DNA from: Brachyspira intermedia PWS/A | GTDB taxonomy: Bacteria > Spirochaetota > Brachyspiria > Brachyspirales > Brachyspiraceae | DNA: 64,000 nucleotides | Direction of reading: 5' to 3' | NCBI RefSeq assembly: GCF_000223215.1 | Contig: NC_017243.1 | Span: 2,542,001 to 2,606,000, forward strand | Shown here: positions 49,606 through 52,144 of the stretch, piece after piece | Layout: each line of letters starts with the position of its first letter | Position numbering within the stretch: the stretch's first letter is position 1 | Translations under genes and position numbers: made by a program | Notes under the pieces: generated by a model | What the model was told of the DNA's origin: nothing | Database searches by the model: none | What the model saw: only the letters and a program-made list of their open reading frames with translations

Positions 49606-49609
49606 TATA

Positions 49610-49648
49610 AAAGAGTTTGAGATGAAAATTTCAAGCTCTTTTTTTATA
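49610..49648 (+). terminator. Terminator downstream of the GH2 gene
   Basis: The arms AAAGAGTTTGA and TTCAAGCTCTTT around GATGAAAAT, followed by TTTTTT. Confidence 0.8.
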
Positions 49649-49717: not shown

Positions 49718-50158
49718 ATGAAAAATGAAGATATAAAAAAATATATGGAAGTCATATATGATTTTTGGTATACTTCTAATAGATTTTATTATCTATGGGC
49801 TAAGCAGTATGGTATTACAGATTTGGCTTTATTCAGTTTATTTATAATCTATAATAGCGGAGAATGTGTACAGAATACTATCACAGAAAAACTATCTGTT
49901 CCAAAGCAAACTGTATGTTCTATACTTGATAATTTCGAGAAGAAAGGATATATCAAAAAGAAAATTAACCCAAAAGATAAAAGAAACAGATTAATAAGTT
50001 TAACAAAAAAAGGTCTTACATTTGCAGAACCTATATTAAAAGAATTAGAAAAATTAGATATGCAAATGCTTAAATGTCTTACAGAAAATGAAATCAAAAA
50101 TTATGTAGAACCTCAGAAAAAACTTATGACATTTATGGAAAATTATTTTAATAATTAA
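49718..50158 (+). CDS. MarR-family transcriptional regulator
   Basis: A 146-residue winged-helix repressor type. Helices around FYYLWAKQYGITDLALFSLF are followed by the recognition region ITEKLSVPKQTVCSILDNFE. The wing EKKGYIKKKINPKDKRNRLI contains the DxR-type motif, and a C-terminal dimerisation helix follows. MarR proteins bind palindromes as dimers and are released by small phenolic or oxidised ligands. The target may be itself or the genes that follow (YkgJ and the B12/radical-SAM-like protein), but no operator could be identified. It starts at the ATG with a weak SD (GGGATAAAG). Confidence 0.88.
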   Translation: MKNEDIKKYMEVIYDFWYTSNRFYYLWAKQYGITDLALFSLFIIYNSGECVQNTITEKLSVPKQTVCSILDNFEKKGYIKKKINPKDKRNRLISLTKKGLTFAEPILKELEKLDMQMLKCLTENEIKNYVEPQKKLMTFMENYFNN

Positions 50159-50219: not shown

Positions 50220-50660
50220 TTGAAAGTTATACCTTCCGATAGTTTATTAAAAAATAGAAAAGAAAAAGTAAGTGAAAAATTATGTGCCGACTGCAATTCA
50301 TTATGCTGTCATGATTTGGTTATGGAAATATCTCCGCCTAAAAATGAAAGCGAACTTAATACATTAAAATGGTATTTGCATTTCAGACATTCATTTATAT
50401 TTATATATGAAAATACTTGGTATCATATGATAAGAAGCGAATGCAGATATTTAGATAAAAAAACATATTTATGCAAAAATTATGAAAACAGAAATGAAAT
50501 CTGCTCAAAACATAGTCCTCCTAAATGTGAAAGATATGAAGAATGGTATGATGTAATATTTGATGATCAATATGAATTAGAGAAGTATGTATATGAAAAG
50601 AAAATAATTAAGAAAAAATCTTCGACTACAAAGAAAAAAGTAGCTAAAAAAACTAAATAA
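50220..50660 (+). CDS. YkgJ-like cysteine-cluster protein
   Basis: A 146-residue protein with eight Cys in a YkgJ-type arrangement: CADCNSLCC (about residues 22-30), then CRYLDKKTYLCKNYENRNEIC, and KHSPPKC. Such clusters bind zinc or an Fe-S centre; the reaction is unknown. The C-terminus is a Lys-rich tail (KKKSSTTKKKVAKKTK). It starts at TTG 50220 with AAAGGCGG upstream, the same SD form used before the phosphorylase gene at 59212. The next gene is 20 bp downstream, so it is probably co-transcribed with the radical-SAM-like protein. Confidence 0.8.
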   Translation: MKVIPSDSLLKNRKEKVSEKLCADCNSLCCHDLVMEISPPKNESELNTLKWYLHFRHSFIFIYENTWYHMIRSECRYLDKKTYLCKNYENRNEICSKHSPPKCERYEEWYDVIFDDQYELEKYVYEKKIIKKKSSTTKKKVAKKTK

Positions 50661-50680: not shown

Positions 50681-52144
50681 ATGAAAAAAAAAGAAATTAA
50701 AAAAGTTTGTATAACATATCCGCCTTTTGAATATAATAATGGATATCCATTAATATCTTTAAATAGGCAATTTCAATGGTTAAAAAATCCTTCATATGCC
50801 TACCCTATGCTACCATCTTATGCTGCTACTTTATTAAAAAATAATGGTATTAATGTTGTGTTTTTAGATACAATAGCATCTAATATTACAACTATAGATT
50901 GGTTTAATAATATAGATGATATAGCTCCTGACTTAATATTCTTTGAAGTAAAAACTCCTATAATTAATTATATTTGGGATACTATAGAAGCAATAAAAGA
51001 AAGATATGAAAACATCTATGTTGTTTTGGCAGGCGATCATGTTACTGCTTTGCCTGAAGAAAGTATGGAGAAATCAAAAACAGATTTCGTATTAACAGGC
51101 GGCGATTATGATTTTCTTCTTTTAAATTTAGTTAATCATATAAATAATGGTGAAAAATTAGATAAAGGTATATACTACAGAACATCTAATGGAAATATAA
51201 AAAATACAGGAAAATTTGAACTTGAAGAATCTTTAGACAGACTTCCATTTATAGATAGAAATCTTACAAATTGGAAACTATATTCAAAAACTAATGAATA
51301 TTTCAAAAAAACACCCGGCACATCTATAATGTCAGCGAGAGGTTCTTTATATAATAATTATAACAGTAATTCTTCTAATATTCTTTTTGATAAGGTAAGA
51401 GTTAGAAACCCAATAAATGTTATAGATGAAATAGAATATTTGAATAAAAGATATGGAATAAAAGAAATTTTGGATACAAGTGTTTATTTTCCCACAGGAG
51501 AATGGCTTTCATTATTTTGTGAAACTATGAAAGAAAGAAAACTTAATAAGAAAGTTTATATTGATTGTTATGTTTATCTTGGAATATTAGAATATCAAGA
51601 TTATAAAATGATGAAAAAGTCAGGATTTAAAACAGTTATTTTTAATTTGCCTTCAGGAAATGCTAAAACTATAGAGAAACTAGGTATTACTGATAATACT
51701 GTAGAAAATGTGATAGAATCTATAAGATTAGCTAAGAAAGCAGGTTTATTTACAGATATAATGGTAAAAATAGGATATCCTTGGGAAACAGATGAAGATA
51801 TAATAAATACATTCAATATTGTCAAAAATTTAATGCTTAACGGATATATTAATTCTATGAATGTTTCTCTTTTCATACCATATCCCGGAACTAAATTATT
51901 CAAATATTGCGATGAAAATAATCTTATTAAAACAAAAAATTGGTTTGATTATGATATGAGAAAAAGTGTTATGGAATTAAATATGGATGATGATCAAATA
52001 TTTAAATATATTGAATATTTTTATAATTTGTCATTTAATCCTAAATATGTACTGCAAAAAATAAAAAGTATAAGGGATATTTACGATATAAAATACAATA
52101 TAAAATCATTTAAAAATATACTTTCATTCTATTTAAATGATTAA
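50681..52144 (+). CDS. B12-binding/radical-SAM-like protein lacking the Fe-S cysteines
   Basis: A 487-residue protein. The N-terminal domain (about 1-170) is B12-binding-like: YPMLPSYAATLLKNNGINVV, PDLIFFEVKTP, VVLAGDHVTALPEE. The rest is laid out as a radical SAM TIM barrel: VRNPINVIDEIEYLNKRYGI, IYIDCYVYLG, GFKTVIFNLPSGNAKTIEKL, IMVKIGYPWETDEDI and SLFIPYPGT. The cluster motif, expected as SARG-C-xxx-C-xx-C, reads SARGSLYNNYNS: the three Cys are Ser222, Asn226 and Ser229. It cannot bind the usual [4Fe-4S]-SAM centre. The frame is intact over its whole length, so it appears to be a maintained, repurposed protein, not a dead one. Partner candidates are the adjacent YkgJ protein and MarR. Confidence 0.78.
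   Translation: MKKKEIKKVCITYPPFEYNNGYPLISLNRQFQWLKNPSYAYPMLPSYAATLLKNNGINVVFLDTIASNITTIDWFNNIDDIAPDLIFFEVKTPIINYIWDTIEAIKERYENIYVVLAGDHVTALPEESMEKSKTDFVLTGGDYDFLLLNLVNHINNGEKLDKGIYYRTSNGNIKNTGKFELEESLDRLPFIDRNLTNWKLYSKTNEYFKKTPGTSIMSARGSLYNNYNSNSSNILFDKVRVRNPINVIDEIEYLNKRYGIKEILDTSVYFPTGEWLSLFCETMKERKLNKKVYIDCYVYLGILEYQDYKMMKKSGFKTVIFNLPSGNAKTIEKLGITDNTVENVIESIRLAKKAGLFTDIMVKIGYPWETDEDIINTFNIVKNLMLNGYINSMNVSLFIPYPGTKLFKYCDENNLIKTKNWFDYDMRKSVMELNMDDDQIFKYIEYFYNLSFNPKYVLQKIKSIRDIYDIKYNIKSFKNILSFYLND

Follow-up and report, generated by a model that had tools for sequence, protein, structure and literature searches.

Three cysteines are the defining feature of radical-SAM proteins. A CX4CX2C spacing has been reported for GenD1, a B12 radical-SAM methyltransferase (PMC4340712). 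FliB, a flagellin lysine methyltransferase, displays a PF03692-type motif (CX4CX3CC) and eight conserved cysteines; it holds a single [4Fe-4S] cluster and releases MTA from SAM (PMC8598068). Few members of the CxxCxxCC family (PF03692) have a known function. A literature search for Cys-free radical-SAM pseudoenzymes, which was limited and is not proof of absence, yielded none.

The DNA analysed here (the window) is a stretch of 64,000 nucleotides from the genome of Brachyspira intermedia PWS/A. One of its open reading frames encodes a B12-binding/radical-SAM-like protein in which the three cysteines are missing. This Cys-less protein is probably a non-radical working partner of a CxxCxxCC protein that is encoded beside it.

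The Cys-less protein and its domains

The positions of the gene, its domains and its neighbors are shown in Table 1.

Table 1. Features of the Cys-less gene and its surroundings, with the intact paralogue of the same genome.
Feature	Position	Strand	Remarks
Terminator-like hairpin upstream of MarR	49609..49642	+	
MarR-family regulator	49718..50158	+	Upstream in most species, not all
CxxCxxCC (PF03692, YkgJ-like) protein	50220..50660	+	146 aa; TTG start; 20 bp upstream of the Cys-less gene
Cys-less B12-binding/radical-SAM-like protein	50681..52144	+	487 aa; ATG start; open reading frame
B12-binding (Rossmann) domain	50816..51097	+	Residues 46–139; Pfam PF02310
Former cluster loop	51344..51370	+	Residues 222–230; S-LYNN-Y-NS-N replacing C-X4-C-X2-C; alignment to intact copies
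Radical_SAM barrel match	51386..51817	+	Residues 236–379; Pfam PF04055; Foldseek matches (low-confidence model)
Former GxES motif	51644..51655	+	Residues 322–325; now N-L-P-S (GLES in intact copies); conservation across 25 proteins, alignment
Intact CX4CX2C paralogue	L046:7820-9277 = G000:C2:2127819-2129276		In the window's genome; 47% identity to the window protein

Both Pfam domains score above their cut-offs, PF02310 with 33.6 bits (cut-off 32.1) and PF04055 (Radical_SAM) with 37.9 bits (cut-off 29.5). A preliminary description of this DNA had called the product a full-length B12-binding and barrel protein, and the uninterrupted frame of 487 codons together with the two domain matches bears this out. 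By its Rossmann domain the protein belongs to the B12-binding family. It also belongs to the Radical SAM superfamily by descent, as shown by the Pfam match and by the 47% identity to the intact paralogue. The functional hallmarks of that superfamily are absent: the window protein and 25/25 orthologues have neither the three cluster cysteines, as CX3CX2C or in a spacing variant, nor the SAM-contact motifs of the barrel, including the GxES type on beta 4 (SAM contact being assigned by position).

Among NCBIfam models, HpnJ (TIGR03471, 104.7 bits) and BchE (TIGR02026, 84.3 bits) match best. Their equivalog cut-offs, 577.6 and 481.35 respectively, are far above these scores; the protein is thus not a member of HpnJ and a known function is not assignable to it.

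The AlphaFold model was built from 13 close sequences and has a pLDDT of 50.6, so that it serves for fold recognition only and the former cluster site cannot be inspected in it. Foldseek searches with this weak model list AprD4, MgmA, OxsB, TsrM and TokK first, with CysS within the top 20. These matches are consistent with a B12 radical-SAM fold.

Loss of the cluster motif

A scan of the entire 487 aa sequence shows no CxxxCxxC motif. The corresponding segment of the intact paralogue reads RDCWHHRCTFC, i.e. CX4CX2C, and RDCWHHRCTFCSW or a similar CX4CX2C sequence is found in this paralogue and in outgroup homologues. The ancestral motif of the protein family is CX4CX2C. When the window protein is aligned to the intact copies, the lost cysteine positions are S222, Y227 and N230; next to them, T228/F229 of the intact copies are replaced by N/S. 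The preliminary description was right that the motif cysteines are missing, but it had placed them at S222, N226 and S229 on the assumption of a CX3CX2C spacing. Its “three independent losses” cannot be demonstrated either, as all three changes fall on a single stem branch.

Unusual radical-SAM spacing variants are present in distant spirochaete relatives (L055, L056, L063, L064 and L118). In these the first cluster cysteine is separated from the second by an expanded spacer, from about 9 to nearly 30 residues long, and the usual CX2C follows.

A reference set of 109 columns that are invariant in 15 intact relatives shows where other residues were lost. Sixty of these columns are in the loop and barrel and 49 elsewhere. 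In all 25 Cys-less proteins 16/60 loop and barrel columns have been lost vs 2/49 elsewhere (Fisher p = 0.0015). The residues lost throughout include T228, F229, N297, R299, G322, E324 (GLES to NLPS), P358, T361 and Q394. In alignments with AprD4 and MgmA (6fd2/9ccb), E324 falls in their GxES stretch, and by their position in the known fold the lost barrel residues would be ones that contact SAM. With GxES and further barrel motifs eroded, the Cys-less protein seems unlikely to bind SAM. The B12-domain residues G118, H120, E127 and D135 are kept in 25/25 proteins, as are G140 and G141 just beyond the domain. Residues of the B12 domain are thus largely kept while SAM-side barrel residues have been lost along with the cysteines.

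The replaced loop has a consensus of its own, NYNSNSSN-LF. Ranked by conservation among the Cys-less proteins, its residues 225–236 are at the 65th–88th percentile, average to above average, and therefore the loop is not simply decaying. Replacement residues G221, S232, F236, K317 and T318 are invariant in 25/25. Of the cysteines outside the motif, C10, C296 and C410 are present in 25/25 Cys-less proteins and C280 in 24/25; C280, C296 and C410 are equally, or nearly equally, conserved in intact CX4CX2C proteins.

Conservation within Brachyspira

Orthologues are found in 25 out of 26 Brachyspira genomes with 53%–98% identity. All have open reading frames and all are without the three cysteines. 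The exception is G006, an assembly that is 88% complete and in 990 contigs, where both the Cys-less gene and the CxxCxxCC gene are absent. The collection of homologues that the preliminary description had called for thus shows the loss to be conserved, with unbroken frames. Close homologues with an intact motif, which in its terms would mark the window copy as simply mutated, do not occur among the orthologues; they are present in the next-closest groups at 41%–52% identity, i.e. the in-genome paralogue, G074, G148 (genomes of two other genera) and the outgroups. A pseudogene, a sequencing error or a single mutant can be ruled out, given 25 genomes with no stop codon or frame break and a dN/dS of about 0.1.

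Median dN/dS (Nei-Gojobori; pairs with dS of 0.1–1.5) is 0.098 for the Cys-less gene, 0.034 for the still more strongly conserved CxxCxxCC gene and 0.090 for MarR; carB, used as a yardstick, gives 0.054. The Cys-less gene is under purifying selection and therefore is maintained. It does evolve faster than the intact paralogue: between G000 and G010 the Cys-less proteins share 53% identity and the paralogues 86%. Part of the change is therefore relaxed constraint. Across Brachyspira species the paralogue is 84%–97% identical.

The CxxCxxCC partner

The preliminary description had noted a Cys-cluster YkgJ protein and a MarR regulator beside the gene. Pfam matches confirm both (PF03692: 28.8 bits, cut-off 23), and both genes lie directly upstream. 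The CxxCxxCC neighbor, which that description had treated as background, is in fact the constant partner and offers the main lead. It is directly upstream of the Cys-less gene on the same strand in 25/25 Brachyspira pairs, with a gap of 3–29 bp. The remaining neighborhood is not conserved (L009–L011, L065–L070), and in more distant species carAB, a sugar hydrolase and other neighbors are not kept.

Eight cysteines of the CxxCxxCC protein are invariant (C22, C25, C29, C30, C75, C85, C95 and C103). The first four form a CX2CX3CC motif, to which the other four are additional. The window copy starts with TTG, as do those of most species; GTG or ATG is used in others. An AlphaFold model has a pLDDT of 61.7 with most cysteine regions poorly modelled, and no solved structure related by sequence was found.

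No Shine-Dalgarno sequence is recognisable in the gap ahead of the ATG of the Cys-less gene in the window. This missing ribosome-binding site suggests translational coupling of the two genes. No terminator-like hairpin was found between MarR and the Cys-less gene, and Rfam searches near the latter gave neither a cobalamin riboswitch nor any other element.

Relatives and history of the gene pair

Across about 300 spirochaete genomes, close relatives of the CxxCxxCC protein are found only in the window genome's own family (f1), and its pairing with the radical-SAM-like gene only in Brachyspiraceae. Relatives in other spirochaetes have E-values of about 1e-10 to 1e-16, and no radical-SAM neighbor is present in the six of these whose flanking sequences were read. 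No relatives were found among viral contigs. Plasmids carry only distant radical-SAM proteins (22%–26% identity) and no CxxCxxCC relative. Genomes outside the Spirochaetota were scanned by short peptide patterns only.

In G074 and G148 the CxxCxxCC gene abuts a radical-SAM homologue, with 4 bp between them in one case and a 20-bp overlap in the other. Here CX4CX2C is intact, and the CxxCxxCC protein has the same eight cysteines. In a tree computed without the motif columns, all Cys-less proteins of Brachyspira share one clade with those of G074, G066 and G148 (99/95), and the intact Brachyspira paralogues are its sister group. The intact-motif pair and the tree together show that the pair arose with a cluster motif, and that Brachyspira lost this motif on its stem but retained the partner.

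The G066 copy (L117:6485-7954) occupies the site at which G074 has its intact one. It is Cys-free, strongly diverged and open, and its CxxCxxCC gene is gone. Since a Cys-free copy persists alone here, dependence on the partner is not universal. The best tree requires two losses of the cysteines, on the Brachyspira stem and in G066, although a single loss is not rejected (p-AU 0.40). A MazG-like neighbor shared by G066 and G074 favours a second loss in G066, which was probably separate.

The outgroup CX4CX2C homologues L128 and L051 adjoin glycosyltransferase or O-antigen-ligase-like genes, as judged by eye from the sequences. These surroundings hint that the ancestral enzyme may have acted on a surface glycan or lipid.

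Proposed role and alternative explanations

The Cys-less protein may be a pseudoenzyme that acts as a scaffold or a cobalamin/substrate-binding subunit of the CxxCxxCC protein; we put the probability of this at somewhat over one half (about 0.55). The reading is based on the invariant pairing (25/25), the joint absence in G006 and the intact pair in G074 and G148. It is also based on loss of the cysteines in 25/25 open frames, the low dN/dS, the concentration of losses in the loop and barrel, and a replaced loop that is not decaying. Against it are the faster evolution relative to the paralogue, the lack of a riboswitch nearby and the partnerless copy in G066.

The ancestors of the protein had a CX4CX2C cluster site and were already encoded behind the CxxCxxCC gene. 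The Brachyspira stem then saw the loss of the three cysteines, along with several barrel residues on the SAM side. Purifying selection preserved the reading frame, the B12 domain and parts of the barrel, and the gene stayed adjacent to the CxxCxxCC gene. The two proteins may be co-produced as subunits of one complex, where the Cys-less subunit would generate no radical and have a scaffold or cobalamin- or substrate-binding role. Any metal chemistry would be carried by the CxxCxxCC protein itself.

The selection for a non-radical role that the preliminary description suggested is the best fit to the genus-wide loss, since residues on the SAM side disappeared along with the cysteines, most of those in the B12 domain persist and selection is purifying (dN/dS 0.098). 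It is unlikely, though it agrees with the invariant gene pairing, that the CxxCxxCC protein lends a SAM-cleaving [4Fe-4S] cluster in trans to a Cys-free B12/TIM-barrel subunit, with radical or methyl-transfer chemistry continuing across two polypeptides. FliB shows that a PF03692-type protein can bind such a cluster and use SAM, and the CX2CX3CC motif and four more cysteines are all invariant. We give this split enzyme a low probability because the partner gained no cysteine, the same eight being present in G074 and G148 beside an intact radical-SAM motif with no compensating gain, and because the barrel has also lost its SAM-side glutamate, among other residues. A little less likely still is a stand-alone non-radical B12 protein, e.g. 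a sensor, methyl carrier or chaperone, possibly MarR-controlled, whose CxxCxxCC neighbor is merely co-transcribed. The PF02310 match and the retained G118, H120, E127, D135, G140 and G141 would suit such a protein, as would the example of TsrM, a B12 radical-SAM protein that methylates without radicals (PMC8992657). However, TsrM retains its cluster and requires SAM, MarR is not always adjacent, and the CxxCxxCC gene adjoins every Brachyspira orthologue and the homologues in two other genera.

The faster evolution relative to the paralogue and the divergent, Cys-free, partnerless copy in G066 could also indicate a slowly decaying relic of a redundant enzyme whose function is covered by the paralogue. 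This is improbable in view of a dN/dS of about 0.10, the lack of stop codons in 25 species and the replacement residues that are invariant in 25/25. The least probable alternative, for which we see very little chance, is a different metal site in place of the cluster, in which C280, C296 and C410 hold a metal near the barrel. The constancy of these residues and of C10 in the Cys-less proteins would agree with it, but C280, C296 and C410 are as conserved, or nearly so, in intact proteins and hence are not a replacement; their spacing is also unlike known cluster motifs.

Comparison with known systems

The pair retains the cluster motif in G074 and G148 but has none in Brachyspira, which makes a natural experiment. 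Comparing intact and Cys-less pairs would reveal the role of the CxxCxxCC protein and also what in a B12 radical-SAM protein remains of use once radical chemistry is gone.

The window protein is similar to HpnJ/BchE-type B12 radical-SAM proteins in domain order and over nearly its full length, but it is far below their cut-offs and is without the cluster cysteines and the GxES glutamate. AprD4, MgmA, OxsB, TsrM, TokK and CysS are fold matches, obtained with a low-confidence model. The CX4CX2C spacing of GenD1 (PMC4340712) is common to the intact paralogues, whereas all three cysteines are missing from the window protein. TsrM (PMC8992657) is a precedent for a B12 radical-SAM fold that has abandoned radical chemistry, but it keeps CX3CX2C, the cluster and SAM binding, while the window protein has lost the cluster site. 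The CxxCxxCC partner is likened to FliB by motif only: both have a PF03692-type cysteine motif and eight conserved cysteines, and the partner, unlike FliB, is a 146 aa protein paired with a radical-SAM-like gene. By this analogy the partner could hold a cluster, as FliB does.
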